From: Candidatus Woesearchaeota archaeon
Lineage (GTDB): Archaea > Nanobdellota > Nanobdellia > Woesearchaeales > WJIZ01
Length of the DNA: 53,216 nt
Assembly: GCA_018221205.1 (NCBI GenBank)
Contig: JAAOYF010000028.1
Coordinates: 1 to 53,216 of the forward strand
Direction of reading: 5' to 3'
In this document: one piece after another, positions 9,676 through 26,913 of the stretch
Position numbering within the stretch: position 1 is the stretch's first letter
Layout: the number at the start of each line of letters is the position of its first letter
The notes under the pieces: generated by a model
Seen by the model: the letters and a program-made list of their open reading frames with translations, nothing else
Database searches by the model: none
Told to the model about the DNA's origin: nothing
Position numbers and translations under genes: made by a program

Positions 9676-10260
9676 ATGAAAGAAATGCGAAAGAAGCTGC
9701 TCCTTTTCCTTTTAGCAGTTGTCAGCATAGTGCTTATCGTGGAATTTATCTTTATCCTGTATAAACTTAATCCCTTAGAGTATCTCAAGACCCTTCCTAT
9801 CATCAGAGAGATCATCACTGCAGTGGTACTTCTTCTCGAGAATAAGAATTATGTGGGTGTGTATCTATTCTTTGCTTCTGCTGCCCTGTTCTTCTTTCCC
9901 TCTCCACTGGAACTGTTCTATTATGGATTTCTTCAGCAGGACTTTTCCTTTCTGCCGTTGTATGCTGCAACTTTGCTGGGAATCCTGACAGCACAGCATA
10001 TCAATTATGGCCTTGGAAGATTTTTCGGGAAATTACTCAGGAAATGGGTGAACGAGAAGACCATCGCTAAATATCAACGGAAGATCGAGAAACAGGGGCA
10101 TTACTTCATCCTGGTCATGCATGCTTTTCCTCTGCCTTATGCCATCTTCAATTTCGTCGTCGGACTATCGCATTATAGATATGGAAAATGGCTGGCCATG
10201 GCTGTGAGTGGATTGATGTTCAATTTTGTCTTAATCTATTCGATATTTCTCCTGTTCTAG
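9676..10260 (+). CDS. VTT/DedA-like membrane protein
   Basis: About 194 residues with four to five hydrophobic segments. The central region F-F-P-S-P-L-E-L-F-Y-Y-G ... G-I-L-T-A-Q-H-I-N-Y-G-L-G-R-F-F-G-K-L resembles the VTT (SNARE-associated, DedA/YqaA) core with its re-entrant loop and glycine motif; the later H-A-F-P-L-P-Y-A-I-F-N segment fits the second half. Such proteins act as lipid flippases/scramblases or in membrane homeostasis. The TATA at 9645-9654 favours the ATG at 9676 over that at 9661. It ends on top of the end of the small membrane ORF of ATPase operon 1. Confidence 0.7.
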   Translation: MKEMRKKLLLFLLAVVSIVLIVEFIFILYKLNPLEYLKTLPIIREIITAVVLLLENKNYVGVYLFFASAALFFFPSPLELFYYGFLQQDFSFLPLYAATLLGILTAQHINYGLGRFFGKLLRKWVNEKTIAKYQRKIEKQGHYFILVMHAFPLPYAIFNFVVGLSHYRYGKWLAMAVSGLMFNFVLIYSIFLLF

Positions 10261-10370
10261 AAAAAGGCCTTCAGCGAAAGATAGAGAATGATCATGAAAC
10301 CGATGAAGACCGTTATTTCTGAGGAAAGCCTTGCGAAATGAAGCAGCCTGACGTAGGATTCATTCTTCAA
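10257..10370 (-). CDS. Small one-helix membrane protein at the end of ATPase operon 1
   Basis: 37 residues if started at [23 protein letters not shown] followed by a hydrophobic helix (VFIGFMIILYLSL) and a short K-A-F-F end. It overlaps the last 11 nt of the D-subunit gene, so translation would be coupled. The reading frame closes exactly 4 nt into the convergent VTT gene. No Vma21 or subunit e match is claimed. The same arrangement (D gene, then a tiny one-helix protein) occurs at the end of ATPase operon 2, which supports it being real. Confidence 0.5.
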   Translation of the reverse strand: MKNESYVRLLHFARLSSEITVFIGFMIILYLSLKAFF

Positions 10371-10962
10371 CCTTGATCACCTTCAATCTTGAGAACTCTT
10401 CTCTGGCGCGCTCTTCTAATCTGAAAGATATCCTTTTTGCTGTTTTCTTCAATCTGGGTAGGGTATGAAATTCTAAAGAGTTCACTCTTCTCTTTGTCTT
10501 CTGGATATGGTCTGCAAGCTTCTTCAGTTTGAGCTGCTTCTCGGCGAGAGTCATGATACTGGGGAATAACGCACGGTATTTGACCAATGCATTATCTAAT
10601 TCTACACTTTGGTCGAAATAACCAGGCCATTGATATTTCACCTCTAATTTGTCTATCTTCGGCACGGTGACACCCATGATCTTCTCCTGGGAGATATGAA
10701 AGGTAGAGTCTTCAGCCAACCCTAAAGAAAGGCGGTCGATATCGACCCTTCCTTCAATCGCGATGGCGTTGTATAAAGAAGCACGGGCTTTTCCCAGCTC
10801 TCCTGCGATCTTTCCCCTGGCCTCTTTGATCTCTTTCAGGACTTTGAAGAATTCCATGATCAATGCATCTCTTTTCTGCTTGAGGAGCTTATGGCCGCGG
10901 TCTGCCATATCGATCCTTTTCCTTGTCTTCAGCAATTCCATCCGGGTCGGTTTAGTTTGCAT
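10360..10962 (-). CDS. atpD: A/V-type ATPase subunit D, operon 1 (central stalk)
   Basis: 200 residues. Subunit D is the antiparallel coiled-coil axle that rotates inside the A3B3 head. The characteristic beginning [12 protein letters not shown] and [15 protein letters not shown] are visible, as is the C-terminal [16 protein letters not shown] motif. The start overlaps the B gene end by 11 nt. The paralogue at 18810 is the D subunit of operon 2. Confidence 0.95.
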
Positions 10963-12322
10963 AGTACTTCTCGATGAATTCTTTGGAGATCCTCTTCAAT
11001 TCTTCTTTGGGCAAGGTAGAAAGAAGCTGCCAGGCTTTTTTCAACGACTCCTCTATAGGGCGATCCTCATCATAGCTCTGATTGATGAATTCATGCTCGA
11101 ATGTATCGGCGAAATCAAGATACTTCAAGTCGAGCTCTGTCAAGGATTCTTTTCCTATGACAGCAACCAAATCTCTTAGCGAGCGGCCGCGGGCATAGCC
11201 AGCATATAGTTGATTGGACACATCTGCATGGTCCTCTCTTGTATGGCCTTTGCCTATTCCATGGGCCATCAATCTTGATAATGAAGGAAGTACATCATTC
11301 GGCGGATAGATCCCTTTATGCTGCATATCCCTGGAAAGGACAAACTGGCCCTCTGTGATATAGCCTGTCAGATCCGGAATGGGGTGGGTTATGTCATCAT
11401 CAGGCATGGATATGATGGGCACCTGGGTGAGAGAGCCTTTTCTTCCTTTAATGCGGCCGGCCCTTTCGTATAATGACGCAAGATCAGTGTACATGTATCC
11501 TGGATAGCCCCTTCTTCCTGGAATCTCATTCCTTGCTGCAGAGACCTCTCTCAGCGCTTCACAATAATTTGTCATATCAGTCAGGATAGCGAGAACATGC
11601 ATGTCTTTCTCGAACGCGAGATATTCGGCAGCACTCAACGCAATCCTCGGAGTGATTATCCTCTCGATAGCAGGATGATTTGCGAGATTGAGGAACAAGA
11701 TAGTATTCTGCAACGCGCCAGATTCCCTGAACTCATTCCTGAAGAACTGGGCCTCTTCGTGCGTTATGCCCATGGCCACAAACACCACAGCGAAATTCTC
11801 CTCTTTCGCAAGGACTTTTGCCTGTTTGACTATCTGAGCAGCAATCTTATTATGAGGAAGGCCTGCGCCTGAGAAAATGGGCAATTTCTGACCTCTTACG
11901 AGTGTGTTCATCAGATCTAAAGCAGATATTCCTGTCTGGATGAATTCTTTTGGATATTCTCTCCTGAACGGATTGATCGCAAGACCGTTGACATCGATAC
12001 GTTTCTCCGGGATGATATCTGGCTGGCCGTCAATCGGCTCGCCAAGACCATTGAACATCCTTCCTAACATCTCAGGACTGACATTCAGCTTCATCGTATC
12101 TGCGGTGAAGCGTACCCTGGTCTTGAGGGTGTCAATTCCAGAGGTGCCCTGAAAGATCTGCACCACAGCTTTTCCTTTCTCTACTTGCAAGACCTGGCCG
12201 AGCCGTCTTTGATCATCGGCAGTGATGATCTCAACAATCTCGCCGAATGCAACATCCTCTATGCCTTCGACTACGATGAGCGGGCCTTTCACATCGGTAA
12301 CAGAGCTATATTCCTTTATCAT
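10952..12322 (-). CDS. atpB: A/V-type ATPase subunit B, operon 1
   Basis: 456 residues, the non-catalytic nucleotide-interface subunit of the A3B3 head. Conserved: the N-terminal K-G-P-L-I-V-V-E barrel, [16 protein letters not shown] (the degenerate P-loop region typical of B) near 147, and [15 protein letters not shown] near 270, with the interface Arg usually found downstream in S-L-S-R-L-M (visible). Starts overlap the A gene end by 17 nt. It is about 30 residues shorter at the C-terminus than the operon 2 copy. Confidence 0.96.
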
Positions 12323-13979
12323 ATTTCATCCTAGCTAATTTTTCATCCATCTTCGGATCCTTCAATTCTGACAGTTTCTTTCCTTGCTTGATATCTTTCA
12401 TCAGCTTTTCATGATATTCTAAGATCTCTTTCAGCATAAAGAACTGCTTTTTCGGAGCGCAATAGGAGTCTACTTTATCATAGGCATTCTGCTGCAGGAA
12501 ATCCTCTCTCAGTCTTTTTGTTGTGTCTAAGACGAGCTTGTCCTCTTCTGGAAGAGCATCTGGGCCGACCAATTGCACAATCTCCTGCAATTCTTCTTCT
12601 TTCTGAAGAAGGGCAAAGGCTTTCTCCCGTAGCTCTGGGAATTGCGGATCCACCTTAAGATAGAACTCTTTTACATCGTCGGCATATAGTGAATACGAGG
12701 TGAGCCAGTTGACAGCTGGAAAATGCCTTTGATATGCGAGAGGTGCGTCCAGTCCCCAGAAGACTTTTGTTATTCTCAGCGTATTTTGGGTAACGGGCTC
12801 TGAGAAGTCGCCTCCAGGGGGAGAGACAGCACCAATAACAGAGATAGAGCTTTCAGCATCATTAAGGGTGAGCACATTTCCTGCACGTTCATAGAACTCA
12901 GCAAGTTTCGAAGACAGGTAGGCAGGATAGCCTTCCTCTCCTGGCATCTCCTCCAATCGTGAAGAGATCTCTCTCAATGCTTCAGCCCATCTTGAGGTTG
13001 AATCTGCCATCAACGCCACATTGAAACCTTGGTCGCGAAAATACTCTGCAATCGTTATTCCAGTATAGATAGAGGCTTCTCTTGCTGCTACAGGCATATT
13101 TGAGGTGTTGGCGATCAAAACTGTTCTTTCCATCAATGGCTTATTGGTGCGGGGATCCATCAATCTTGGAAAATCATTCAGCACTTCTGTCATCTCATTT
13201 CCTCGTTCGCCGCAGCCGATATAGACGACAATATCTGCATCAACCCATTTTGCCAGCTGATGCTGGGATATGGTCTTTCCTGCTCCAAAAGGACCGGGAA
13301 TACAGGCTGTTCCGCCTTTTGCCAATGGGAAGAACGTATCAAATACCCTTTGTCCTGAAATCAATGGCTGTGAAGGGGTGAGCTTCTTCTTGATCGGTCT
13401 TGGTACTCGGACAGGCCAGCTCTGGCTCAAGGTTATCTCCTCTATACCCTTCTTTGTCTCTATTTTCGCAACAACACTCTCTGCCCTATGCACACCTTCA
13501 TAGATCTCTATCAATCTGCCTTCTTTGTCCGGAGGCACCATTATCTTATGCTGGATCAGCTCGGTTTCAGGAACGTGACCAATGACCTGACCAGGTAAAA
13601 GTGGGGTGCCCGGATGGACATTGGCCTTAAATTCAAATTCCTGTTCCTTGCTTAAGGAAGATGCTTCTATACCACGCTCAATAAAATCTCCAGACTGCGT
13701 AGCGAGATAGGGCAGAGGTCTGCCAATACCGTCGAGAATGCTGCCTAATAAGCCTGGGCCAAGATCGATGCTCAAGGGCAACCCTGTTGTCTCGATCTTC
13801 TCATCCGGTTTCAAACCTGTTGTATCTTCATAGACCTGTATAACCGCTAAGTCTCCTTTCAATTGGATGATCTCTCCAATCAGACCTTCTTCTCCTACTT
13901 TGACTACATCAAACATCCTAGAACCTTTCATGCCTTCCCCTATCACAACAGGTCCGGAAATCTTGTTGATGAATCCCAT
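12306..13979 (-). CDS. atpA: A/V-type ATPase catalytic subunit A, operon 1
   Basis: 557 residues. Catalytic ATP-binding subunit. Walker A G-P-F-G-A-G-K-T is near residue 229, the catalytic Glu motif G-C-G-E-R-G-N-E near 256, and the bulge ('non-homologous') region specific to A-type subunits spans about residues 115-190. All residues needed for ATP turnover appear present. Its start touches the F gene stop and its end overlaps B. No intein is present, although A subunits sometimes carry one. Confidence 0.97.
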
Positions 13980-14257
13980 CAGAGCTGCACTTCTCCGCCG
14001 ATGGCTTTCCTTGTTATCTCCTGCAGGTCATCTATCTTTGAAAAATCCTTCAATGTATCTGGAAATACAATGACATTCTCGTACTCTTTCAATTCAGGAA
14101 CAAGATCCATGATATCTACAGTGGCTATGATAAAGGCATCTTTGTCCATCTTCTTGAGCAATGAGATCGCCTGCACTCTTGAGGAGACGGCATGGCTGTT
14201 CTTTATGCCTGCCAGTCTCAATCCGAGGGCGAACTCCTCATTCGCCAAGACGATCAT
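13979..14257 (-). CDS. atpF: A/V-type ATPase subunit F, operon 1
   Basis: 92 residues. Small central-stalk regulator that binds D. The N-terminal pattern [10 protein letters not shown] matches the F-subunit signature (G-F-x-L-A-G), followed by alternating beta-alpha elements as in its Rossmann-like fold. Overlaps C by 4 nt (ATGA) and touches A. Divergent from the operon 2 copy (104 residues), consistent with separate assembly of the two machines. Confidence 0.88.
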
Positions 14258-15318
14258 ATGACCATCTCCTTCAGTTCTTTCTTATCGAGCTGTGCTGTAA
14301 TGCCTTTTGCGATGATGAGCAGATTGCGGAATTCCATCCTTTTCTTTGTGAGATAGGAGACCAACGGATAGGGGCCGATAGGATGTGAGAGATCTTCCTT
14401 CGAGACACTCGTTAAAAACCACCTATGCAGTTCCTGTTCGAAGCTGTAGAAATTGTCTGTCTTGTTGTATTTGGCCAAGGCGTTCTGCAGCGGCTGTTCT
14501 AATTCAGTAGACTCGAACGCATTGACGAATTCTTCCATGGTCTTCGCGTTGATCGCTTTTTCCTTCAGGGGAGAGTCAAGCTGCACTTTTTTCTGGATCT
14601 CTTTTTGTTTTCGTATCTTGCATTTCAAGAGCATGAGGATATTCTTGATGAGTTTTCTTTTTGCGAATATTCCTGCGATATGGTCCCTATCAGCGACCCT
14701 TAGTCCAGAGAGCGACTCATCAATGCCCTTCATCACTGTCTCTTCTAATGCAAGATCAAATTCCTCTATTGAGCTGATCTTCTGGTCGAAGATCTTTTCA
14801 TATTCGGTATTGTGCAAGACCAGCTGCACATCTGCAAGAGTCTTTGTCTGATGAAGCCTTGTCAGCAGCACTGGATTGATCGATCCTATGGGCTCGACTA
14901 AACTCTTGTCTAGGTGGGTATTGGAGAATCGGGATCGGAAGAATGTCTTTAAGATGCGGCCTTCATAGATCTTGTCATAAGCATCAAATACGGGCTGGAA
15001 CTTTTTCGGAGAAAGATTTTTTGTGTTCTGGATGGATTGGATGAATCCCTGCTCTACAGCCATAGAGAATTCCAGCAGGCTTTTCTTGTTGATTGTCCTG
15101 AGGAACTCCTGGGAATCAGTATTGTTCAGCTTAGCGACCAATTCAGGCAAGGAATCGCACTCTGCAAGTTTAAGGCATGCGTCATGATCCAGAACAGCAC
15201 GTGATATGATCCTTGCGTTGGCATAGAGGAAAGAGCTCTGGCTGGCATTCTTATACAGGACAATACCTAGCGCAGCACCGGTAACTGCTGTTATGCCTAA
15301 TGCGAGCTCAGCTACCAT
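14254..15318 (-). CDS. atpC: A/V-type ATPase subunit C, operon 1
   Basis: 354 residues. Subunit C (the V-ATPase d homologue) is the funnel-shaped adaptor that joins the central stalk to the K ring. The sequence is all-helical, with the threefold pseudo-repeat suggested by spaced F-x-x-A-x-E and F-R-x-L motifs and the conserved R-N-L-L-I-I-A-K-G end. The first 20 residues are hydrophobic, an unusual addition absent from the operon 2 copy. Position between E and F supports the call. Confidence 0.88.
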   Translation of the reverse strand: MVAELALGITAVTGAALGIVLYKNASQSSFLYANARIISRAVLDHDACLKLAECDSLPELVAKLNNTDSQEFLRTINKKSLLEFSMAVEQGFIQSIQNTKNLSPKKFQPVFDAYDKIYEGRILKTFFRSRFSNTHLDKSLVEPIGSINPVLLTRLHQTKTLADVQLVLHNTEYEKIFDQKISSIEEFDLALEETVMKGIDESLSGLRVADRDHIAGIFAKRKLIKNILMLLKCKIRKQKEIQKKVQLDSPLKEKAINAKTMEEFVNAFESTELEQPLQNALAKYNKTDNFYSFEQELHRWFLTSVSKEDLSHPIGPYPLVSYLTKKRMEFRNLLIIAKGITAQLDKKELKEMVI

Positions 15319-15844
15319 AGAATAACCTCCTCGCTATCTTATTTCTCAGCTCTTGCTTCTGTGCTTCAAGGAATCTCGTAAAGGTGAAATCCAATGTCAA
15401 TGTATCTTTCTCAATGGTGATCCCGTTTATGCTGGTGTCAATCTGTATATCTGGAAATAAACCCCTATATTCTTCGAACGTCCCCCTCACCTTGCCTTCT
15501 CCAGATGATCTCTTGACCCGTTCAATATATTCTGGATTCTTCAGCACTTGTCCGGATCGTTCTTCGGCCTGTTTGAAGGCTTCAATGAGCAGATCTTCCC
15601 TTTTCTGCTCATATTCCTTTTTCGCATGCAGCACCTCGTCAGCCATAGTAGAGGTATAGACTTTCTTCTCTTCATTGATCATCTCAGATTCTTTCTTTCT
15701 TAACGCGATGTCGTGGTCTGAGTCGATAGACAAGCGGTCTTTGGTGAAAAGCTCAAGCTGCTCTTTCTCGAAATCATCAAGAAGCTTCTGATAGTGCTTC
15801 TTGAGCTCCTCTCTGAGCAGTTCAAGATTTCCAGCAGTGTTCAT
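15308..15844 (-). CDS. atpE: A/V-type ATPase subunit E, operon 1
   Basis: 178 residues. Peripheral-stalk subunit: a long charged N-terminal helix (about 1-105) that pairs with subunit H to form the stator coiled coil, and a mixed C-terminal domain that holds the top of the A3B3 head. Order K-E-C and length match the family. Overlaps C by 11 nt and K by 4 nt. Confidence 0.88.
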   Translation of the reverse strand: MNTAGNLELLREELKKHYQKLLDDFEKEQLELFTKDRLSIDSDHDIALRKKESEMINEEKKVYTSTMADEVLHAKKEYEQKREDLLIEAFKQAEERSGQVLKNPEYIERVKRSSGEGKVRGTFEEYRGLFPDIQIDTSINGITIEKDTLTLDFTFTRFLEAQKQELRNKIARRLFYGS

Positions 15845-16323
15845 CCCAACACTCCAAGACCTACGACAAGCAAGATCAATGAGACGATAAAGCCGAAGAT
15901 AGCTGGCGTTTCACACTGGCCGCCAAAGATCAAGCTTGGCGCAAAGGCATCTGGATTCTTTGCGGAGCTCACTATCCCTGATGCAGCCACTGTTCCCTGG
16001 AAGATGGCAGAGATGCCTGTTATGGCGACTATGGCTCCTGCGCCGAACATCGCCAATCCTTGAAGGGTGGTGAGACTCTTGACACTGCCGCCGAGCAGAC
16101 CCGCACCCATGAGGATCAAGAGTGCGGTGATGAACGCATACACCGTCTGTGTCTGCGGCAGGGCCTGTAGGATCAAAGCTGAACGGAAGTTCTCTTTTTT
16201 TTCTGCGACCGCGCCGGTTCCTGCCAAGCCTGCAGTCTTCAATCCGAAGACTGTACTCAGACCTGCCACTCCCATTGCTAAAGCTGCTCCTGAAATTGCC
16301 CAAATTGTACCTTCAGTTACCAT
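15841..16323 (-). CDS. atpK: A/V-type ATPase rotor subunit K, double hairpin, Na+-type (operon 1)
   Basis: 160 residues, four membrane helices in two hairpins, resembling Enterococcus hirae NtpK. The second hairpin has the ion-carrying Glu138 (C-E-T-P-A-I-F-G-F) and Gln109 (F-Q-G-T-V-A-A-S-G) 29 residues before it, exactly as E139/Q110 in NtpK. The first hairpin has L55-P-Q-T58-Q59-T-V-Y62, matching NtpK L61, T64, Q65 and Y68, and no carboxylate. All NtpK Na+ ligands are therefore present. One carboxylate per four helices halves the ions moved per turn, which favours ATP-driven pumping over ATP synthesis. The Na+ reading is inference from residue identity recalled for NtpK. Confidence 0.93.
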   Translation of the reverse strand: MVTEGTIWAISGAALAMGVAGLSTVFGLKTAGLAGTGAVAEKKENFRSALILQALPQTQTVYAFITALLILMGAGLLGGSVKSLTTLQGLAMFGAGAIVAITGISAIFQGTVAASGIVSSAKNPDAFAPSLIFGGQCETPAIFGFIVSLILLVVGLGVLG

Positions 16324-18202
16324 TTTCTATACCTCCGAATGGAACATATTTTTTTCCTTGTCCTTCATAGAATTTTGAGAAAAACTCAAGAAAGTGAAGC
16401 CTGATGGAGTGAACAAATGCACCTAAGCCATTCATCGCCAGATTGAAGAGATGGCCTATGATGAACACCATAGGGGCAGCTATCTTCCCTACAAAAGGAA
16501 TGCCCCATACCATCAGCGTCATGAAATTTACCGCTAATGCGATGCCTGCAGTCCCTACAGCAAGTGCCATCAATCTGCCATAGGAGAATAAATCTCCTAT
16601 GAAGCCAGTGAAATTGAACACTGATAAGAGAGAGGGAACAACTCCTGCTTCGTCATAGGTGAGACCTACCTGGAATACGAGCGAGAGCAAGAGCAAGCTG
16701 TAGCCGAATACAGGAATCTGCAGCACAAACATGATCAAAGAGAAGAGGAATAGAATCCACACCCCCTGCTTATGCAATGCGTCTTTGACTTTCTTCTTCT
16801 TCATATTTTCAAAAAAACCTACTGCCAATCCGGTGAAGAGATGGATTGCGCCAAGAGCAATTGCAATAACCAAGATGGTCGTGATGCTTCCCAACGAATC
16901 AAGGAGTTGAGGGACATTAAATCCTACTCGTTGAAAGAAATCTCCGAAATAGGAGCCGAAAAAACTTCCTAAGACAGCAGTAAAGATACCGAATGTTGTC
17001 AGGATGAGGCCGATATCTTTTGTTCTTCTATCATAGCTTCCTTTTCCCCTTATCAGGAGGAGGCCCAAGGCCAATAGGACGAAGCCATAGACGACATCAG
17101 TCAGCATGAAGCCGAAGAAGAATGAAAAGGTGATGGCAAGTATCGGAGTCGGGTCGATGTCCTTATAGCGGGGCAGGGAATAGAGTTCAGTGAACAGCTC
17201 GAACGGCTTGATGATCCTTGGATTTTTCAGCAGCGTAGGAGCATCTTCTGCTTCTTCATAGCTCAGATGGAACCCTTTGGCCTCTCGTCCGATGACATAT
17301 TCGAATTCATCCTTGTTCTTTTCAGGGAGCCAGCAGTCCAGTACAGAGAAAGATTCGGCTCCTTTGAGCATCTCTAAGGCAGTTATCTTCTCCTTCCAGA
17401 TATTCAACTCTTTCAGGAACGAATCGAGCAGGCGATGATTGGCCACAAAGAGACGGTATTGATCTTTCATTATCCTGTTTTCCTCTTGCAAGAGCTTCAG
17501 ATTCTCATCTTTTAATGTCTTTATTCTCAGATGAGGAAGGATACCTTCTTTCGACAATTGCAAGGCATCAAAACCGACAGTATGCAGGCCTGATTCGATC
17601 TTCTGCGCATCCTCATGCAGGCAGACGACAATAAGCAGGCAGACCTTCTCATCAATGGGTTTGGTGAGTATGATGGCTCTTTCCAATGATAGGCGATGTT
17701 GAGCTGAGTAGGAGATTATTCCGGCGAATTTCCTGAAAAACTGTGAATCTGCCAGCGCATCTAGCTTGATATCAGGCAGATATCTCAGATTCTCTATCTC
17801 ATAATCGTTCTTGTTCCTGTTTTCCTGGATAGCCTTGACCCTCTGTGCATTCTTTTTAACACGGTCTTCCATAGTATCGAGAATATCTGTTATTTCCCCG
17901 AACAATTCCTCTTTTTTCAGCTGGGCGACACTTTTCAGCGTGGTCTTTTTTGAGAAGAGGTCCTTGAAGAAATTCTTGGGGGTCGCTTTGCTATACTGGC
18001 CAAGGGTCTCTTTGAGGAATTTGACGCGGGCATAGAGGTTGATAGTCTGCTGCTCGTCTTCATCAAGGCTCTGCTCATCCAGATTCACTTCTGATTTTGT
18101 TAGTTGGCAGATGCCCTGCTTGTATAATGCAGAGATGACCTCTTGAGCATGGTCTTTAGGCAGAATCACTGAAGTCCTCACTATCTTTTCTGGCTTAAAC
18201 AT
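16313..18202 (-). CDS. atpI: A/V-type ATPase subunit I (a), operon 1
   Basis: 629 residues. Stator membrane subunit that forms the ion half-channels. The N-terminal about 330 residues are soluble and coiled (binding the peripheral stalks); the rest has seven to eight membrane helices starting with P-T-P-I-L-A-I-T-F-S-F-F-F-G. The two arginines expected to face the rotor carboxylate are seen in S-Y-G-R-L-M-A-L and H-S-I-R-L-H-F-L-E-F-F-S-K-F-Y. The ATG overlaps the H gene by 8 nt. Confidence 0.95.
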   Translation of the reverse strand: MFKPEKIVRTSVILPKDHAQEVISALYKQGICQLTKSEVNLDEQSLDEDEQQTINLYARVKFLKETLGQYSKATPKNFFKDLFSKKTTLKSVAQLKKEELFGEITDILDTMEDRVKKNAQRVKAIQENRNKNDYEIENLRYLPDIKLDALADSQFFRKFAGIISYSAQHRLSLERAIILTKPIDEKVCLLIVVCLHEDAQKIESGLHTVGFDALQLSKEGILPHLRIKTLKDENLKLLQEENRIMKDQYRLFVANHRLLDSFLKELNIWKEKITALEMLKGAESFSVLDCWLPEKNKDEFEYVIGREAKGFHLSYEEAEDAPTLLKNPRIIKPFELFTELYSLPRYKDIDPTPILAITFSFFFGFMLTDVVYGFVLLALGLLLIRGKGSYDRRTKDIGLILTTFGIFTAVLGSFFGSYFGDFFQRVGFNVPQLLDSLGSITTILVIAIALGAIHLFTGLAVGFFENMKKKKVKDALHKQGVWILFLFSLIMFVLQIPVFGYSLLLLSLVFQVGLTYDEAGVVPSLLSVFNFTGFIGDLFSYGRLMALAVGTAGIALAVNFMTLMVWGIPFVGKIAAPMVFIIGHLFNLAMNGLGAFVHSIRLHFLEFFSKFYEGQGKKYVPFGGIENGN

Positions 18203-18509
18203 TTTTCAGAAACTCCTCAAAGATGATATTGATGGCATCATTAATCCTGTTTTTGACAGCATCAAGCTGGTGTATCTTCTCGCTATAGGACTGTCTCAAT
18301 GAAGATGCTTCTTTCTTTGCCTCTTCCTGGGCTTTTTTCACCAGATTATGTTTGTAAGAGGATAGTTCAAAGAGCTCCATATGGTTCTTATCAAGAAGCT
18401 CTTTCTTCTGCTGCGAGAGGATATCTAGAAAGACCCTTTTTTTCTGCTCAAACGCTGACTCTTGACTCTTCTCGAAGAGTTGTAGCTCTTCCAGTACTGA
18501 AATGTCCAT
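18195..18509 (-). CDS. atpH: A/V-type ATPase subunit H, operon 1
   Basis: 104 residues, almost entirely a charged coiled-coil helix rich in Gln, Lys and Glu, ending in a shorter amphipathic segment. This is the peripheral-stalk partner of subunit E. It is first in the operon and has the strong ribosome binding site AGGGGTGACG. Assigned from position and coiled-coil character more than from sequence motifs, which are weak in this family. Confidence 0.82.
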   Translation of the reverse strand: MDISVLEELQLFEKSQESAFEQKKRVFLDILSQQKKELLDKNHMELFELSSYKHNLVKKAQEEAKKEASSLRQSYSEKIHQLDAVKNRINDAINIIFEEFLKNV

Positions 18510-18510
18510 C

Positions 18511-18556
18511 CGTCACCCCTTTTTATATCTCTTCTCGGAAGGGGTGTTTTTAAATC
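18511..18556 (-). promoter_or_regulatory. Promoter and ribosome binding site of ATPase operon 1
   Basis: On the minus strand the TATA-like GATTTAAAAACAC (18556-18544) would start transcription near 18524, giving a leader of about 15 nt that contains AGGGGTGACG. A second AT-rich GATATAAAAA lies too near the ATG to act as its TATA box. Operon 1 can therefore be transcribed independently of operon 2. Confidence 0.5.
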
Positions 18557-18675: not shown

Positions 18676-18813
18676 TTATAAGAACTTTTTAAAGAATACG
18701 ACGATTAAGGTAACGAACAAGGCAAGAACAACAGCATTTATCAATGCGACAATCAGCCAGAATTTAGTTGACGGCTTCTTTAGCCAATTCTTGAATCTTT
18801 TCCAGCGCTTCAT
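18676..18813 (-). CDS. Small one-helix membrane protein at the end of ATPase operon 2
   Basis: 45 residues. MKRWKRFKNWLKKPSTK is a strongly basic head, followed by one membrane helix of about 24 residues (FWLIVALINAVVLALFVTLIVVFF) ending K-K-F-L; the positive ends suggest the N-terminus stays inside. Its ATG overlaps the stop of the D gene (ATGA), so it is translationally coupled to the ATPase. No family recognised. Together with the similar tiny ORF after operon 1 it suggests an unnamed accessory or assembly subunit. Confidence 0.7.
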   Translation of the reverse strand: MKRWKRFKNWLKKPSTKFWLIVALINAVVLALFVTLIVVFFKKFL

Positions 18814-19427
18814 GTTTTTTTCTTTATGCGCTTCATCCTGAAGACATTCTCTCTTTCTGCCTCTTCTAGGCGGAGCTGGATAAAAGAGGAGGTCTTCTCC
18901 ATACGCGGGATGACTTCAAACTCGAGTGCATTCACCCTTCTTTTTGTCTTTTCGATCTCTCTCAACAGCTTTCTCATACCAGTCTCGACTTCTGCAGCCT
19001 TGATGATCTTCTCGACGACCTTCTCATAGCCGGATGCTGCCTCATCCACTGCAGCTGAGCTGTATAGGCCATATCCCCTTTTCAGGGTTGATTTCTGCAC
19101 TTCAATCTCACCGATATTCGGCACTAAAACTCCCATGATGTTCTTTGTGCCTATCTCGACTTCAGGAGATTTGGAAACAGCCAAGGCAATCGACTTTATC
19201 TTGAGATCAGATTCGAGCAGGCGGGCCATATTCATCTTGTCAAGAGCACTTTTGTACTCCTCGACAATCTCCCCTCTCAGATTCTTCACTTCTTTGAGGA
19301 TGTCAAAGAAATCCAAGATGAGGCCGTCACGCTTTTTCTTCAGGAGATTATACCCGGATTTAGCCAGCTTGATCTTCTTCTTCAATTCCATCAATTCCGA
19401 TCTTGTCGGTTTGACGTTCTGGGTCAT
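18810..19427 (-). CDS. atpD: A/V-type ATPase subunit D, operon 2 (central stalk)
   Basis: 205 residues, central rotor axle of the second ATPase. Conserved P-T-R-S-E-L-M-E-L-K-K-K-I, N-L-L-K-K-K-R-D-G-L-I-L-D-F-F and K-T-K-R-R-V-N-A-L-E-F-E-V-I-P-R segments. Clearly paralogous to the D at 10360 but with many differences. Touches the B stop (1-nt overlap) and overlaps the small membrane gene. Confidence 0.95.
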   Translation of the reverse strand: MTQNVKPTRSELMELKKKIKLAKSGYNLLKKKRDGLILDFFDILKEVKNLRGEIVEEYKSALDKMNMARLLESDLKIKSIALAVSKSPEVEIGTKNIMGVLVPNIGEIEVQKSTLKRGYGLYSSAAVDEAASGYEKVVEKIIKAAEVETGMRKLLREIEKTKRRVNALEFEVIPRMEKTSSFIQLRLEEAERENVFRMKRIKKKT

Positions 19428-20890
19428 TACGCTACCTCTTTCTTCAAGTCGTCTTCATCGACGCCGCCTTCAAGGGGTTTTTTGTATTTGGGTGTTGTCT
19501 TTCCTGATCCTGCTATTTTTTCTACATGATCTTTGTAGTACTTCTTCTTCAGGTCTGGGGAGATCCTTGTCAATTCATCCGGTGGAATCATGCCAAAAAG
19601 CTTCCAGCCCATATTCAAGGTTGTGGTTATTGTCCTGTCTTCATCTTTTGACTGGGTCACGAACACTTTCTCGAACTCTTCTGCGAATTTCAAAAGCCGC
19701 TTATCTCTTGCTGACAATGCTTCTTCACCGACGATGGCCACTAGCCCTCTTAAGTCCCGGCCTTCTGCATAACCTGCATAGAGCTGGTCTGAGACTGATT
19801 TATGGTCATCTCTTGTTTTCTTCGGACCTATACCAAGGTTCATCAGCCGTGATAATGACGGCAAGACATCAACCGGAGGATATATCCCTTTTCTGTGCAG
19901 CTCTCGGCTCAGGACAATCTGGCCCTCAGTGATATATCCTGTCAGGTCGGGAATAGGATGTGTAATATCATCTCCGATCATGGTCAAGATAGGGAACTGA
20001 GTGATAGACCCCTTTTTGCCCTTGATGACTCCTGCCCTTTCATAGATAGAAGCCAAGTCAGTATACATGTATCCTGGATAGCCTCTTCGTCCTGGAACTT
20101 CTTCTCGTGCTGCTCCGATCTCTCGCAATGACTCACAATAGTTTGTCATATCGGTCAGGACAACCAAGACGTGATAGCCTTTCTCGAATGCAATGTATTC
20201 TGCAGCAGTCAAGGCCATCTTTGGTGTAACTAGTCTTTCGACAGCAGGATCATCTGCTAAGTTCAAGAAGATGATTGCTTTAGACAATGCACCTGTCCTC
20301 TCGAAATCTGCGATGAAGTATTGAGCTTCTTCATTTGTTATACCCATAGCTGCGAAGACAACGATGAACTTTTCTCCTTCTCCAAGCACCTTGGCCTGTC
20401 GGGCAATCTGCAATGCCATCTCACTATGAGGCAAACCAGAGCCTGAGAAAATAGGCAGTTTCTGCCCTCTTACGAGGGTATTTGTCGCGTCAATTGTTGA
20501 GATGCCTGTCTGGATAAAGTCTGCAGGAGTGTCTCTTGCGTATGGATTGATGGCTGCTCCGATGATATCCATCTTCTGCTCTGGAATTATGGGGGCCTTT
20601 CCATCAATGGGCTTTCCAGCGCCGTTGAAGACTCTTCCTAACATATCTCCAGAAACACCCAATTTAAGGGTCTCGCCAAGGAACTTCACTTTCGCCCCTT
20701 TTCCGATTCCTGATGTGCCCTCGAAGATCTGGACAACGACGAGATCATCAGAGGTATCAAGGACCTGTCCTGTCTTGACCTCTCCTGAATCCAGCTTGAT
20801 GCTGACGATATCAGCATATCCTATGGGCTCTGTCTTCTCTACGAAAATCAGAGGACCGGCGACTTTGGTTATTGTTTTATATTCTTTCAT
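19427..20890 (-). CDS. atpB: A/V-type ATPase subunit B, operon 2
   Basis: 487 residues from the ATG at 20890. I prefer it to the GTG 9 nt upstream because AGGGTGAT forms a ribosome binding site for the ATG and that GTG is part of it. Same landmarks as the other [39 protein letters not shown] and S-L-S-R-L-M. A charged tail of about 30 residues ([14 protein letters not shown]) follows the usual end and is missing from the operon 1 copy; it could control pairing of the right D or F. Confidence 0.96.
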
Positions 20891-20895
20891 TATAA

Positions 20896-22626
20896 TCACC
20901 CTAGTGCTGCGAACTCTTTTGTCATACTTTTTTCAGCGTCCGTCAGGATCTTCTGATAGTCCTTATCGAACTTTGAGTTCACAATCTCGTTCTTTGACTT
21001 CACTTCAAGGATCTTCTGGATTCTCATCCCTTTGCCCAGGGCTTCCTGTCCAAGGTCCCTATATTTGAGAATAGTCTTCATGATCGCTCTTGTTTTCTTC
21101 AGATCGCAGAACGTATCAACTGCGTGGAACGCGTTCTGCTGCAGGAAAAATTCTCTGATCATCCTGGCAACCTCTAAGGTCAGCTGCTCTCTGTCAGGCA
21201 GGGCATCGGATCCTACTAACTGTACGATCTGAAGCAGTTTCTCTTCTTCCTGCAAGATGCTCATGAACTCGGTCTGGAGCTTCTTAAAATCCTTTCCGAC
21301 ATTCTCTGCAAACCAGGGCTCTAGTGCGTCTCGATATAGTGAATACGAGGTGAGCCAATTGATACTGGGGAAATGTCTTCTTTGGGCGAGCTTTGCGTCC
21401 AATGCCCAGAACGCCTTGGTGACCCTTAGGGTATTCTGAGTAACGGGCTCTGAGAAGTCGCCTCCTGGGGGAGAGACAGCTCCGATAAGTGTTACAGATC
21501 CTTCTTTCTTCTTTCCTTTCGGAATGGCCCTTCCTGCCCGTTCGTAGAACTGCGCAAGTCTTGTTGCGAGATATGCAGGGTAGCCTTCTTCACCAGGCAT
21601 CTCTTCCAGCCTTGAGGAGATCTCTCTCATGGCTTCAGCCCATCTTGAGGTTGAATCTGCCATCATAGCAACACTGTAACCCATATCCCTAAAGTATTCT
21701 GCTATCGTTACTCCAGTATAAACAGATGCTTCTCTTGCTGCTACTGGCATATTTGAGGTGTTCGCAATGAGGACTGTCCGATTCATGAGTGCTTTTCCGG
21801 ATTTTGGATCAATAAGTGCTGGGAATTCTTTCAGAACCTCTGTCATCTCATTTCCTCGTTCGCCGCAACCGACATAGACGACGATATCTGCGTCAGCCCA
21901 TTTAGCCAATGTCTGCTGAGCAACGGTTTTTCCTGCTCCGAACGGACCTGGAATGGCTGCTACCCCTCCTTTTGCTAGCGGGAAGAGTGCGTCGAAGATC
22001 CTTTGTCCTGTTATCAATGGAACAGTCGGATTGAGTTTCTTTCCAACAGGCCGCGCTTTTCTGACAGGCCAGAGCTGCTTCATCTTTAAGATAGTGCCGT
22101 CATCCAATTTTCCGACAGGTTCGTCAACAGTATATTTACCTGAGGATATCTCCTTGATCTTTCCTTCCTTGTCAAGAGGGACCATGATGCTGTGCATGAT
22201 TCCAGGTGTCTCTTCGACTTCGCCGATAACTTGGCCAGGCTTTACTGCATCACCTTTCTTCACTTTGGCCTTGAAATCCCACTTTTTCTTTGGGTCCAAG
22301 CCTGGAGCTTCGAGGCCGCGGAAGATATAATCTCCCTGTTCCTGCTGAAGCACAGGCAGCGGTCTCTGGATTCCGTCGTAGATGCTCGTCAATAATCCGG
22401 GACCGAGTTCGATGCTCAGCGGCTTTTTTGTATTAATGACCGGCTCGCCAGGCTGCAGGGCAGAGGTATCTTCATAGACCTGGATGATGATCTTATCCCC
22501 ATCTATCTGGATGACCTCACCCATGAGCTTTTCATTGCCTACTTTCACGAGATCGTACATGTTTGCACTGATTCCTTTTGCGACCACGACTGGGCCAGCA
22601 ATCCTATATAAAACACCTTTTTCCAT
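20896..22626 (-). CDS. atpA: A/V-type ATPase catalytic subunit A, operon 2
   Basis: 576 residues. Walker A G-P-F-G-A-G-K-T near residue 229, G-C-G-E-R-G-N-E near 256, and the A-type bulge region at about 115-190. Full catalytic equipment, so both machines in the window should hydrolyse or make ATP. Shares its first base with the F stop and ends 5 nt before the B start. It has about 20 extra residues at the C-terminus relative to the operon 1 A subunit. Confidence 0.97.
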
Positions 22627-22940
22627 TATGATTCACCTTTCCATAGATCTACTCCTATAGATTTGATTATCAATTTGCGGATATTGTCTCCGCCTGCATC
22701 TTTTGAGAGTGAGATGAAGACCGGATCAACAGAGTCTTCGATGTCTGAGCGGTCTTGGGATTCCAATTTTTGCAAAACGCTTTCGTCGACAATGATGATG
22801 CCTACTTCTTTATTCTCTTTCAGCTGATACATCTTATCTAAAATATCTTTCTTGTCTTCTGTGTTGACCGACATCCTGATGCCTGCCAATTGGAATCCTA
22901 GCGTGAATGCCTCTGTCCCTATGCACGCCACTTTCTTCAT
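22626..22940 (-). CDS. atpF: A/V-type ATPase subunit F, operon 2
   Basis: 104 residues. N-terminal signature [13 protein letters not shown], then strands and helices including [10 protein letters not shown]. Central-stalk subunit bound to D. Overlaps C by 4 nt. The C-terminal 35 residues, thought to extend upward as a brake in some A-type enzymes, are longer than in the operon 1 copy. Confidence 0.9.
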
Positions 22941-23965
22941 GCGATCACCAACGGCTCTACTTTTTCCATATCCATGCCGAAATTCTTGGCTTTGACGATG
23001 CTCTTGATATTCCGTATCTCGATCTCTTTTGCGAACAGATAGCTCAAGATGACATTGACTGAGAGAGGATTCTGATGCTGGAAGAGAAGTGTTTTCCTGA
23101 AGAGATACTGGTTCAACGCTATTTCCAAGGGAATCAATGAAGATTCGTCAATCTCTTTTATCGGATAAGGAGATTTTGCGATCAACCTATGGATCTCTTC
23201 TTTTGTTTTTGCTTTGAGCAATGATCTCATAAAGACATTGTCTGATCTGTCGAGAGTGAAGAAAATATGCTTCTTAATCTCATCGCTTGCAAAGTTTTCT
23301 TTCTTCAGTCTGAAAAATGTCAATAAATTCGTTGTCTGGATAATGCTCACTAAGAATTCTCTGAACAATTTTCCCTGCCGGGGAATGTTCTTCGCGAAAT
23401 CGAGGAGAGTTCTGAAATAAAAATGATCCAATGCAGTCTCGACATCTACCAATTGCTTTGAGGGCAGCTCTTTGTATCTAAGATAAAATTCATTCAGAGG
23501 AGGTTTCGCTGATTTGAACATCTCCTCATTCTCTTTTTTTCTCATCAGGTCCAGGTCTTGCTCGGACAGCAATCCTATGGGCAAGAGCAATGCTTTCAGC
23601 TCTTCATCAGGAAGATCAATGGCCTTTGCCCGCAATACCACTTTGATATTGTCGATGTCAAATTTGAGAAGATAGGCATCGATGACATCATTGAAATAAT
23701 CCGGAGAAATCCTCTTTAGCTTGGCAATGGTGTGCTTGAAATTCTTGTTCAGGGCCTGTTCTATGAGCTCAAGGCCAGAATACCTCACGCCAAGTTCATT
23801 CATCTCCTTACTGTACTGCGTCTCTCCAAGATAATTGGAGATCTCTGCAAGAGACATCTTCATGAGTTTCTTATAATCTGCTTTAGGTATGAGTAATGTG
23901 CGCATCACCGCGGTCCTCACATAGGTGTAAGGACTTTCCCATAACCTCATCTTACCTTTTTTCAT
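22937..23965 (-). CDS. atpC: A/V-type ATPase subunit C, operon 2
   Basis: 342 residues. Characteristic subunit C beginning Y-T-Y-V-R-T-A-V-M-R-T-L-L-I-P and end E-I-E-I-R-N-I-K-S-I-V-K-A-K-N-F-G. All-helical collar linking the K ring to the DF shaft. Overlaps E by 4 nt. It lacks the hydrophobic N-terminal extension of the operon 1 paralogue. Confidence 0.93.
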   Translation of the reverse strand: MKKGKMRLWESPYTYVRTAVMRTLLIPKADYKKLMKMSLAEISNYLGETQYSKEMNELGVRYSGLELIEQALNKNFKHTIAKLKRISPDYFNDVIDAYLLKFDIDNIKVVLRAKAIDLPDEELKALLLPIGLLSEQDLDLMRKKENEEMFKSAKPPLNEFYLRYKELPSKQLVDVETALDHFYFRTLLDFAKNIPRQGKLFREFLVSIIQTTNLLTFFRLKKENFASDEIKKHIFFTLDRSDNVFMRSLLKAKTKEEIHRLIAKSPYPIKEIDESSLIPLEIALNQYLFRKTLLFQHQNPLSVNVILSYLFAKEIEIRNIKSIVKAKNFGMDMEKVEPLVIA

Positions 23966-24495
23966 CTGAACAACTCTTGTGCTATCTCCTGCAGATATTT
24001 TTCTTTGATACCTCCAACCACTGTATCAAAAGAATAATTTATGCTGACACTGCCATCACTGTTCTCAGAGATCAATCCACCATCTATATCTCCAACTGTT
24101 GCTTTAACTCCTTTGAGGAATTTCGCGTCCTGCTTGTTGCAGTATACCCGAGCTATCTTCATCTGTCTCTGAGCTTTCTTGAGGATGCTCTTCAGATAGG
24201 ATTCTCTCTTTTTTGAAAGTTCCTTCTTCGCTTCCTGAATGGCTTCTTCAATCAACTCCCGTTTCTTCTCGAGCACAAGATGGGCAGCCTCTCCTTGAGA
24301 CTCCGCCTCCTTGATCTGCATTCTGCGCTCCTTCTCTTCTTCAAGAGAATTCTGCAGATGCTTTTTCTTCTCCTGCACGAAATCCTTGAGTTCCTGCTCC
24401 AGTTGCTGTAGTTTGTTTCTGGTTTCTGTCTCTATCTGAGCGATCTCTCTGTCTCTACTCTGTTCGATATCCTTCTTGATTTCTTCAAGTCCCAT
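23962..24495 (-). CDS. atpE: A/V-type ATPase subunit E, operon 2
   Basis: 177 residues. Long charged coiled-coil N-terminal half (E-x-Q-R-D-R-E-I-A-Q-I pattern) and a folded C-terminal half with the D-x-D-x-x-D/G-G-L-I-S-E-N-S-D-G region typical of E. Peripheral stalk with H. Separated from K by 2 nt. Confidence 0.92.
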   Translation of the reverse strand: MGLEEIKKDIEQSRDREIAQIETETRNKLQQLEQELKDFVQEKKKHLQNSLEEEKERRMQIKEAESQGEAAHLVLEKKRELIEEAIQEAKKELSKKRESYLKSILKKAQRQMKIARVYCNKQDAKFLKGVKATVGDIDGGLISENSDGSVSINYSFDTVVGGIKEKYLQEIAQELFR

Positions 24496-24497
24496 GC

Positions 24498-24743
24498 TTA
24501 TCCAGCCATACCGATGATCAAAATGGCGATAACAAGTCCGAAGATAACGATTGTCTCTGGAATAACGGTCAAGATAAGACCTTTTCCGAACAACTCTTCT
24601 TTCTCTGCCATTGCACCTATAGCTGCGGTACCAATTCCTTTTTCAGCCCATGCTGCTGCAAAAGCTGATGCACTGATAGCGATGCCTGCTGCGAGAGCAA
24701 TCATCCCTGTACTTCCATTTGTTATTGCGGCTCCAACTGCCAT
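24498..24743 (-). CDS. atpK: A/V-type ATPase rotor subunit K, single hairpin with two carboxylates (operon 2)
   Basis: 81 residues, two membrane helices. The ion-carrying Glu63 is in I-P-E-T-I-V-I-F-G-L. Exactly 29 residues before it, where Na+-type rings have Gln, is Glu34 (A-W-A-E-K-G-I-G), so two carboxylates could face each other in the ion site. The T-Q-x-x-Y part of the Na+ signature is absent (P-E-T-I instead). One ion site per hairpin gives a high ion-to-ATP ratio, suited to ATP synthesis. A two-carboxylate site is known from the Na+-driven c-ring of Fusobacterium nucleatum, so ion type here is open. Confidence 0.95.
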   Translation of the reverse strand: MAVGAAITNGSTGMIALAAGIAISASAFAAAWAEKGIGTAAIGAMAEKEELFGKGLILTVIPETIVIFGLVIAILIIGMAG

Positions 24744-24746
24744 GTT

Positions 24747-26558
24747 TTATCCCTCCTTATAGCCAAACGGCTTAAATCTTATTCCGCCTCCTTTGTAGAA
24801 CTTACTGAACAGTTCCACATAGTGGAGTCGTAATGAGTGTAAAAAGCTTCCTAACATTCCTATCCCTATGTTGATGATATGGCCGACAATCAATAGGAGT
24901 GCACCCCAGACATAGCCAAGGCCTCCAGCTGCGAACAGCGGCGCGGCCTGGTCGTTGATGACCAATGCTAATCCTACTGAACTTAATCCAATTGCCATTA
25001 ATCTTAGATAACTAAGGATGTTGCCGAAGATGCTCGGAATCTCCACCAATCCTCTCACTCCTTCTCCTTTGTAGAGCATGAAGAGTGATAGTGCAAGGAC
25101 GATCCAGCCCACTATGGGCAAGAGCAGGATGACTTTTGTATAAGATAATGCGAGCAGTGCTACTGAGGCCTGCAGGAATATCCAGCCGAACTTCTCGTAA
25201 AATGCTGTCATGAAACCATGTGCCCTGAATTCATTGATGAAGCCAGCGATCAAACCAGCATTCACATGGATAACGCCTGCAAAAAGTGCAGCGATCATCA
25301 AAGGCTCCAATGCGTGATGAGGATTTCTGCTGATCAAGGGATGCCAAAATTCATAGCCGAAAAATTCTCCAAAGATCAATCCGAAAAATATCGTGCCGAA
25401 TGAGGCAAAGATGAGGATATTGAAAAATCTCTTGAATTGAGGCATGGCTTTCTTCATAAACCAAAATAGTACCAGTGTAGTAAGGCCGTAGCCATAATCT
25501 CCGAGCATGAACCCGAACAATAACGGGAAGGTGATGAACATGAACCACGTAGGATCTATCTCCTTGTACTTCGGCAGGGTATAAAGGTCGAGGAAAAACT
25601 GGAAGCTATTGACGCCCTTCTGATTCTCGAGCTCTATCGGTACTTTGTCTTTCTTGTCTATTGCATGGATCTCGACAACGAGCCTATCATTCGCAGCGTT
25701 TCTCAGTTCTTTTATCGAATGCTCGATATCTTCTTTCGGGACAAAACCCCAGACAACAAATGCTTTGTCTGTCTCCTGGAATCTTAATGGTGCTTCAGCT
25801 TTCTCAAGCTCATTGCTTAGGAGGAACTCATAATCAGGCAGCTTCTTCGCATATTCTTTCTTCAGATTTATGCGTTTTCTTCCGATACCCTTAAGATTGG
25901 ACTGCGCTTTTGCCACTGTCTCTTTTATCCTCTTCTCAGAGCTTTGTTTCATATCTGAGAAATCGATGGAGATGAAATCATGGGCAGTGAGCATGGATTT
26001 TGCAGAATCAAAGAAAGAACTGTCGATGAACAGGGCAATGACAGCTTTCTTTTCAATGATCGCCTTTCTCAATGAATACTTTGTCGTCTTTTCTTTCAGC
26101 TTTGCTTCGAAAGCCTCGATGTTTTTGATGAAGCCGACAGTATAGGAGAGGGTGCTGTATTCCTGAAATGCATCCAGATCAAGCTTCAATGCTTTGAGGA
26201 TCTTTGCCTTTTCGAGATGGTCCTGCTGCTTTCTCAGGATATCGTTGCTTTCTTTCTCCTCATCGGCTATTTTGATGAGCTTTTGAGCGAGAGCTTCGAT
26301 CTCTTTGGCGATCCCCTTCACTGATCCCTTCTGGGCAGCATGCTCTTTTCTGAGCGGGATATTGAATTTTGAGGCAATAGCACGGATCTTTACCAAGGTA
26401 GAAGAAAGAAGCTCTGCATCGGGCAAGGATGAGCCTTTCTCTGCCTCATTCTGGCCTTCTACGATATGGAGGATCTTCAGTTCCTGCAGCCTGGCGATTA
26501 TCTTCGGCATGACAGCCTTCGAGCCTACCAGACGTAATTTAGTCATGTCATTAATCAT
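24747..26558 (-). CDS. atpI: A/V-type ATPase subunit I (a), operon 2
   Basis: 603 residues. Soluble N-terminal half with coiled coils, then membrane helices from P-T-W-F-M-F-I-T-F-P-L-L-F-G-F-M-L-G-D onward. Rotor-facing arginines visible in L-S-Y-L-R-L-M-A-I and H-S-L-R-L-H-Y-V-E-L-F-S-K-F-Y. Start overlaps H by 4 nt (ATGA). It is 26 residues shorter than the operon 1 copy, mainly in the soluble part. Confidence 0.95.
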   Translation of the reverse strand: MINDMTKLRLVGSKAVMPKIIARLQELKILHIVEGQNEAEKGSSLPDAELLSSTLVKIRAIASKFNIPLRKEHAAQKGSVKGIAKEIEALAQKLIKIADEEKESNDILRKQQDHLEKAKILKALKLDLDAFQEYSTLSYTVGFIKNIEAFEAKLKEKTTKYSLRKAIIEKKAVIALFIDSSFFDSAKSMLTAHDFISIDFSDMKQSSEKRIKETVAKAQSNLKGIGRKRINLKKEYAKKLPDYEFLLSNELEKAEAPLRFQETDKAFVVWGFVPKEDIEHSIKELRNAANDRLVVEIHAIDKKDKVPIELENQKGVNSFQFFLDLYTLPKYKEIDPTWFMFITFPLLFGFMLGDYGYGLTTLVLFWFMKKAMPQFKRFFNILIFASFGTIFFGLIFGEFFGYEFWHPLISRNPHHALEPLMIAALFAGVIHVNAGLIAGFINEFRAHGFMTAFYEKFGWIFLQASVALLALSYTKVILLLPIVGWIVLALSLFMLYKGEGVRGLVEIPSIFGNILSYLRLMAIGLSSVGLALVINDQAAPLFAAGGLGYVWGALLLIVGHIINIGIGMLGSFLHSLRLHYVELFSKFYKGGGIRFKPFGYKEG

Positions 26559-26872
26559 TTTATCTCTTCTTCAAATTTCTGTACTACAAGAGAAACCGCT
26601 TTTTGCATGTTCTTCCTGGTATCCCGTTCTAGGGCCTGAGCTTCACTCTTTCCCTTAGCAAGGCTTTTTTCCTTGATCTTTTCCATCTCTTTGTCATACT
26701 GCTCTAATGTCTGAGCATGCTCTTTGTCTAATCTTTCCTCTTCCATCTGTTTCTGTCCTTGGATCTTATCAGAAATCTCTCTCAGTCTCAGCTCTGCTTT
26801 TTTTCTTGCCTGCTCAACCTTTTTCTTGGCATCAGTCTCTGCAAGCTTGATTTTTTTCAGGATTGCATCCAT
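26555..26872 (-). CDS. atpH: A/V-type ATPase subunit H, operon 2
   Basis: 105 residues, a continuous charged coiled coil (K-K-V-E-Q-A-R-K-K-A-E-L-R-L) with a short end segment Q-K-A-V-S-L-V-V-Q-K-F. Peripheral-stalk partner of E; first gene of operon 2. Ribosome binding site GGAAGGGTGG lies just upstream. Confidence 0.86.
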   Translation of the reverse strand: MDAILKKIKLAETDAKKKVEQARKKAELRLREISDKIQGQKQMEEERLDKEHAQTLEQYDKEMEKIKEKSLAKGKSEAQALERDTRKNMQKAVSLVVQKFEEEIK

Positions 26873-26876
26873 ATTT

Positions 26877-26913
26877 CCACCCTTCCGGCTTGATTTCTGG
26901 CCGTTATATAACG
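26877..26913 (-). promoter_or_regulatory. Promoter and ribosome binding site of ATPase operon 2
   Basis: The palindromic TATA-like CGTTATATAACG (26902-26913) lies upstream of GGAAGGGTGG (26886-26877) and the H start. Operon 2 thus has its own promoter, separate from the PhoU-like gene 70 nt upstream. Confidence 0.5.

Follow-up and report, generated by a model that had tools for sequence, protein, structure and literature searches.

The two-hairpin rotor subunit described here has its closest counterparts in the V-ATPase of Enterococcus hirae, the ATP synthase of Pyrococcus furiosus and the ATP synthase of Eubacterium. The E. hirae enzyme has been reported to use a Na+ gradient for ATP synthesis; the measured ratio is 3.2 Na+/ATP (3.3 expected), as in the E. 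coli F-ATPase (PMC12018189). In P. furiosus, the c subunit has four helices with one Na+ site (Mayer 2012, cited in PMC3692424 and PMC9264385), and the cell uses the enzyme as a Na+-driven ATP synthase (PMC8415708). Similarly, Eubacterium limosum/callanderi has a V-type c subunit in a Na+ ATP synthase that is paired with Rnf (PMC9503626).

The stretch of DNA analyzed here (the window; 53,216 nucleotides) is one contig of a woesearchaeal genome of 1.28 Mb and 94.8% completeness (the host genome). It carries two ATPase operons on the same strand; with respect to transcription, operon 2 is the upstream one, at a distance of 300 bp (Table 1). Operon 1 is complete, with nine intact, overlapping or adjoining genes in the canonical order H-I-K-E-C-F-A-B-D, the third of which encodes the rotor subunit K1. 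H1 and E1 were assigned by their position, as family searches returned no match for either of them; relatives of H1 were present at two other loci (L037, L039). Concerning the catalytic head, the closest solved A subunit to A1 is 1vdz (a 588-aa "A-type ATPase subunit A," presumably from Pyrococcus horikoshii), with 794 bits versus 682 for E. hirae. A1 is thus closer to archaeal A subunits than to that of E. hirae, which argues against a borrowed Enterococcus enzyme, and the nearest relatives of K1 are found in DPANN archaea, so that transfer of the operon from an Enterococcus-like bacterium is unsupported. By its gene set and homologies, the operon 1 enzyme is of the archaeal A/V type with an NtpK-like rotor. 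Additionally, a 37-aa one-helix ORF (10257-10370, minus strand) overlaps the end of the operon 1 atpD. A TATA-like element precedes the first gene of each operon, ATTTAAAAA (18547-18555, minus) for operon 1 and TTATATAA (26904-26911, minus) for operon 2, which suggests separate promoters.

Table 1. Features of the two ATPase operons, in positions of the window.
Feature	Assignment	Position	Strand	Basis
Operon 1				
H1	Peripheral-stalk subunit (putative)	18195..18509	minus	Position, charged helical sequence, operon order
I1	Stator subunit a	16313..18202	minus	NtpI match, both arginines conserved
K1	Two-hairpin rotor (c/K) subunit, 160 aa (stop codon included in the position)	15841..16323	minus	NtpK-type Na+ site residues; NCBIfam NF006219 above cut-off
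E1	Peripheral-stalk subunit E (putative)	15308..15844	minus	Position
C1	Central-stalk collar subunit C	14254..15318	minus	PF01992, E = 1.3e-33
F1	Central-stalk subunit F	13979..14257	minus	NF003047, E = 1.5e-8, below curated cut-off
A1	Catalytic subunit A	12306..13979	minus	P-loop GPFGAGKT intact
B1	Non-catalytic subunit B	10952..12322	minus	Family match
D1	Central shaft subunit D	10360..10962	minus	PF01813, E = 4.3e-53
Operon 2	Second complete A/V-ATPase, H-I-K-E-C-F-A-B-D	18810..26872	minus	Gene calls, family matches
K2	Single-hairpin rotor subunit, 81 aa	24498..24743	minus	Glu34 and Glu63

A phmmer search of K1 against all solved structures gave NtpK (2bl2) as the top match by far (E = 1.4e-17), with an identity of 55/142 (39%). 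In this alignment L55, T58, Q59, Y62, Q109 and E138 of K1 fall on L61, T64, Q65, Y68, Q110 and E139 of NtpK, so that the five ligands (L61, T64, Q65, Q110, E139) and the stabilizing Y68 are all represented, and the distance from Gln to Glu is 29 residues in both proteins. Given the overall identity of 39%, six such matches would arise by luck with a chance of about 0.003. The original prediction, which had named these six residues, their spacing and "half the carboxylates" of the ring, is therefore borne out by the alignment: E138, in hairpin 2, is the only carboxylate of the two fused hairpins. Further, K1 scores 115.7 against NF006219 (cut-off 108), which we take to be the Thermococcales c-subunit model. 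No variation was seen at the six site residues or at Q57 across 29 additional two-hairpin relatives, a set fetched partly with patterns covering L55-T58 and E138, so that invariance at these positions is partly built in, with Q59, Y62 and Q109 lying outside the patterns. Seven K1 proteins found by similarity search alone carry the same site residues. As for Q57, which aligns with G63 of NtpK, the residue is indeed present in the first hairpin, but the accompanying claim that other archaeal rings have Glu there was too general. Gln occupies this position in first hairpins of Methanothrix, Methanomicrobiaceae, Thermoplasmata, Altiarchaeales, Aenigmatarchaeota and Nanohaloarchaeota as well, and on these alignments Q57 is not peculiar to K1 but common to many archaeal chains.

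The fold of K1 points the same way. An AlphaFold2 monomer model (pLDDT 95, pTM 0.88) has the four-helix fold of NtpK, and 2bl2 ranked first among solved structures, with an rmsd of 1.2 Å over 150 columns and TM scores of 0.86/0.88; the E-value of the runner-up was almost three orders of magnitude worse. Since alignment and fold both agree with NtpK, the named residues are placed at the ion site at the level of both. On the stator side, the best solved match of I1 is NtpI (8wci, E = 1.5e-41), and the equivalents of both NtpI arginines (R573 and R629) are kept in the alignment with it. In the mechanism that we propose, TM2 of hairpin 1 would supply L55, T58, Q59 and Y62, hairpin 2 would supply Q109 and the sole carboxylate E138, and the two hairpins together would form a single intrachain Na+ site. 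Toward the neighboring chains, the edges would be dead, hairpin 1 being without Glu and the TM1 Gln and hairpin 2 without equivalents of Q65 and Y68, and for that reason the ring would carry one Na+ per two hairpins. Na+ would be exchanged past the stator arginines, and the enzyme could run reversibly, toward ATP synthesis or Na+ export.

A site able to hold Na+ might still work with H+ (or H3O+) at the pH of the host, making the enzyme proton-coupled or promiscuous in vivo. Na+-ATPases are reported to move H+ through Na+-type sites when Na+ is absent (PMC2359735), and an archaeal ATP synthase using both ions at once is announced in the title of Schlegel 2012 (cited in PMC3692424). We nevertheless consider proton coupling unlikely: the five-ligand set and its Tyr are retained across DPANN, Deltaproteobacteria and methanogens and would be needless for a purely H+ ring, and the rotor of operon 2, K2, shows how loss of the set looks. 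Judged from its residues, the operon 1 enzyme is likely to be coupled to Na+.

The lone carboxylate of K1 appears to be one case of a wider pattern. A single-hairpin profile was run over all fetched c subunits, and the complete, non-duplicate multi-hairpin chains were counted, giving 69 chains, the host K1 and NtpK included. Of these, 46 have two hairpins; the remainder are 6 three-hairpin, 5 four-hairpin, 8 six-hairpin, 3 twelve-hairpin and 1 thirteen-hairpin chains. In all 69, which were gathered with patterns favoring Gln in hairpin 1 and are not independent relatives, the first hairpin has neither the carboxylate nor the TM1 Gln but retains T-Q-Y, and the last hairpin still has its carboxylate and TM1 Gln but no longer the equivalents of Q65 and Y68; the losses of the TM1 Gln and of Y68 lie outside the collection patterns and that of Q65 partly inside. 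Middle hairpins have the full residue set in 85 of 89 cases, and the four exceptions sit where the two halves of a twelve-hairpin chain meet, in L076 and L085. Each of these two chains can be understood as a head-to-tail fusion of six-hairpin units in which the former border has stayed dead. Because a site is made of TM2 of one hairpin and the Gln/Glu of the next, N hairpins hold N-1 sites, with none between chains; by the same count the fused 6+6 chains have 10, and the halved carboxylates of K1 follow from the pattern at N = 2. Methanopyrus (13 of 13) and Methanothermobacter, unlike these 69 chains, reportedly have every site intact (PMC2359735), so the rule concerns this group and not all c subunits. 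We tentatively suggest, at somewhat less than even confidence, that the chain border acts as a dead seam: a ring composed of N-hairpin chains, with H hairpins in all, would carry H(N-1)/N ions per turn, and the ion-to-ATP ratio would be set by fusing hairpin genes (2, 3, 4, 6, 12 and 13 seen) and not by ring size alone, K1 being the N = 2 end, run beside a full-occupancy single-hairpin ring. A literature search, mostly outside subscription journals, did not find the general pattern stated beyond the individual cases in PMC2359735.

Also seen were giant c subunits of 1120-1190 aa with 12-13 hairpins in Nanoarchaeota/Woesearchaeales and Thermoplasmata (L063, 9350-12721; L082, 8936-12505; L076, 1159-4545; L085, 5217-8576; and also in genomes G018, G008, G049, G160 and G172), longer than the Methanopyrus subunit, for which 1021 aa are reported. 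Contig breaks fall within the giant gene in several genomes.

Operon 2 differs from operon 1 in its rotor. In K2, the NtpK Q110 position (TM1, AEK) is taken by Glu34 and that of E139 by Glu63, 29 residues further on, with Ile and Phe in place of the Q65 and Y68 equivalents. This pattern, an A-type ring with two carboxylates, occurs in nearly all single-hairpin rings of the operon 2 type within Woesearchaeales. As the equivalents of Q65 and Y68 are lost, H+ may be offered as a first guess for its working ion; F-type rings with two carboxylates can be coupled to Na+, as reported for Fusobacterium (PMC3692424). In the catalytic-subunit tree, operon 2 groups with 13 woesearchaeal rows (support 100/100) and operon 1 falls outside this clade (99/92), together with K1-bearing DPANN including Diapherotrites (93/94; inner node 91/50), so that monophyly of the K1 clade is moderately supported. 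These separate clades indicate that two ancient lineages have come to lie next to each other. A recent tandem duplication of a single operon was ruled out, as the A and B subunits of the two operons are 57-60% identical, their clades are separate and another genome (G028) carries the same pair in reversed order; a further one (G203) has both operons on different contigs. With two anciently separate enzymes and different rotors, the cell probably divides two tasks between them, of ion or of stoichiometry. Evidently, two complete rotary ATPases whose rotors differ can coexist in one small genome.

Paired operons were also seen elsewhere. At five loci of Methanomicrobiaceae/Methanomicrobiales (L086, L089, L093, L095, L099) pairs of A-type ATPase operons run convergently and meet at their ends, one operon of each pair having a three-hairpin, two-site rotor; our literature search found no paper on paired V-type ATPase operons in archaea. 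Apart from the subunit genes, an unlisted ORF (18676-18813, minus) encodes a 45-aa single-helix membrane protein (MKRWKRFKNWLKK...), and its ATG overlaps the stop of the operon 2 atpD. Similar small one-helix ORFs begin at, or at most 14 bases from, the atpD stop at five other loci (L118, L124, L125, L126, L127), and the protein is possibly a small accessory subunit. Directly upstream of operon 2 lies a PhoU-domain-like gene (26941-27816; weak PF01895 match).

Genes for ion gradients in the host genome bear on the direction of the operon 1 enzyme. A membrane pyrophosphatase (HppA) is encoded as a single gene that is divided between the ends of two contigs; these ends overlap by 83 identical bases, which rules out two separate genes. 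In the alignment the placement of its transport Glu (DLFESYVG) is unlike that of the plant H+-PPase (DLFGSYAES) and a GNTTAA motif is present, features that we take to be those of the K+-dependent Na+ type. A membrane pyrophosphatase could build up an ion gradient without ATP. The genome also has two Na+/H+-exchanger-family antiporters, and neither an Mrp/complex I subunit nor RnfC was found in its 94.8%. What it does encode is a divergent RnfD-E-A cluster (contig C26, 57330-59381, equal to L134, 7331-9382; a further one at L140), with all three genes below curated cut-offs. The cluster lies near ribosomal protein genes (L10/L1-like) and has no adjacent RnfB/C/G in both K1 members of the host family examined (the host and G004); it may represent a putative membrane-only Rnf module. 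An RnfC_N match on another contig (C33) was rejected, being a short biotin-carrier-like protein (AMKMEN motif) that adjoins a carboxylase-like ORF.

In a set of 241 Woesearchaeales genomes, 6/8 of those bearing K1 encode Rnf-family membrane subunits, versus 6/233 of the others (Fisher p = 1e-7; p = 5e-6 without the family of the host; 5/6 versus 3/82 when counted by family), which would fit a Na+ cycle. None of the eight K1 hosts checked outside the order has Rnf, so the link is not general; for this reason, and because the host has only RnfD-E-A-like genes, a full Rnf complex was rejected as the partner of operon 1. Na+-driven ATP synthesis, in which the pyrophosphatase (and Rnf too in relatives) would supply the gradient as in E. 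limosum and P. furiosus, draws on this co-occurrence, on the membrane pyrophosphatase present in 8/8 K1-positive genomes versus 121/233 others (p = 0.006) and on the two precedents. The co-occurrence, however, could reflect larger genomes, the host and G004 keep only the divergent cluster, RnfC was not found in the host and the outside hosts have no Rnf; synthesis as the role of the enzyme is possible but, in our judgment, distinctly short of an even chance. A fermenting cell could instead use operon 1 only as an ATP-driven pump, spending substrate-level ATP on expelling Na+. The missing Mrp/complex-I-type antiporter subunits and RnfC would agree with this, as would the Rnf-free hosts outside the order and the reported lack of complete electron-transport chains in Woesearchaeota (PMC8421398), but the reversibility of the E. 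hirae enzyme at 3.2-3.3 Na+/ATP, the use of the same kind of rotor for synthesis in P. furiosus and Eubacterium, the host pyrophosphatase and the co-occurrence with Rnf all speak against it. We regard a pump-only role as a serious possibility that still falls a little below even.

In view of the precedents of E. hirae, P. furiosus and Eubacterium, the general statement that such rings favor ATP-driven pumping is not supported, and because of them the halved carboxylates, on this analysis, neither prove a pump nor are new in archaea. From the original prediction of a Na+-exporting V-type pump in an archaeon, the part on an archaeal rotor with a Na+ site of the NtpK type stands, by sequence, fold and conserved stator, and the export direction is unsupported. 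Given the reversibility in E. hirae, the two synthases and the membrane pyrophosphatase, the enzyme may serve either direction. We prefer a reversible enzyme, and consider it probable that the product of operon 1 is a full rotary ATPase of the archaeal A/V type, most likely coupled to Na+ and carrying one Na+ per two hairpins, beside an anciently separate enzyme with a two-carboxylate rotor.

Compared with known systems, K1 shares with NtpK the two hairpins, the single site, the identical L/T/Q/Y and Q/E set with its spacing, and a TM4 without Q65/Y68 equivalents. It differs in its 39% identity, in Gln for Gly at position 63 and in the C-terminal ETPAIF (ETYAIL in NtpK), and unlike the E. hirae enzyme operon 1 has an archaeal catalytic head. 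The P. furiosus A1AO synthase, by its description, is likewise archaeal with two hairpins and one Na+ site, and the catalytic head of operon 1 is of the Pyrococcus lineage by best PDB match; P. furiosus belongs to a different phylum, and its enzyme is driven by Mrp-containing Na+ pumps, which are absent in the host. Eubacterium limosum/callanderi also combines a V-type c subunit with an A-type enzyme, Na+ coupled in its case (Litty and Muller, 2020), and several K1-bearing relatives of the host have Rnf genes too, but Eubacterium is a bacterium with a Na+-dependent Rnf and the host genome has only RnfD-E-A-like genes. Fused hairpins are further known from the triplicate c subunit of Methanocaldococcus jannaschii and the 13-hairpin one of Methanopyrus (PMC2359735), K1 being the two-hairpin case. 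The closest solved match of K2 is the K subunit of the Thermus V/A-ATPase, with which it shares the PET-x-VIF motif, although the Thermus ring has Gln in TM1 where K2 has Glu; K1 is not a Thermus-type H+ rotor, its Q59 and Y62 being supplied from hairpin 1. By these comparisons K1 is a one-site rotor of the NtpK/P. furiosus type, newly placed in DPANN archaea, which extends this Na+ rotor to Woesearchaeales and Diapherotrites, groups whose energetics are nearly unknown.
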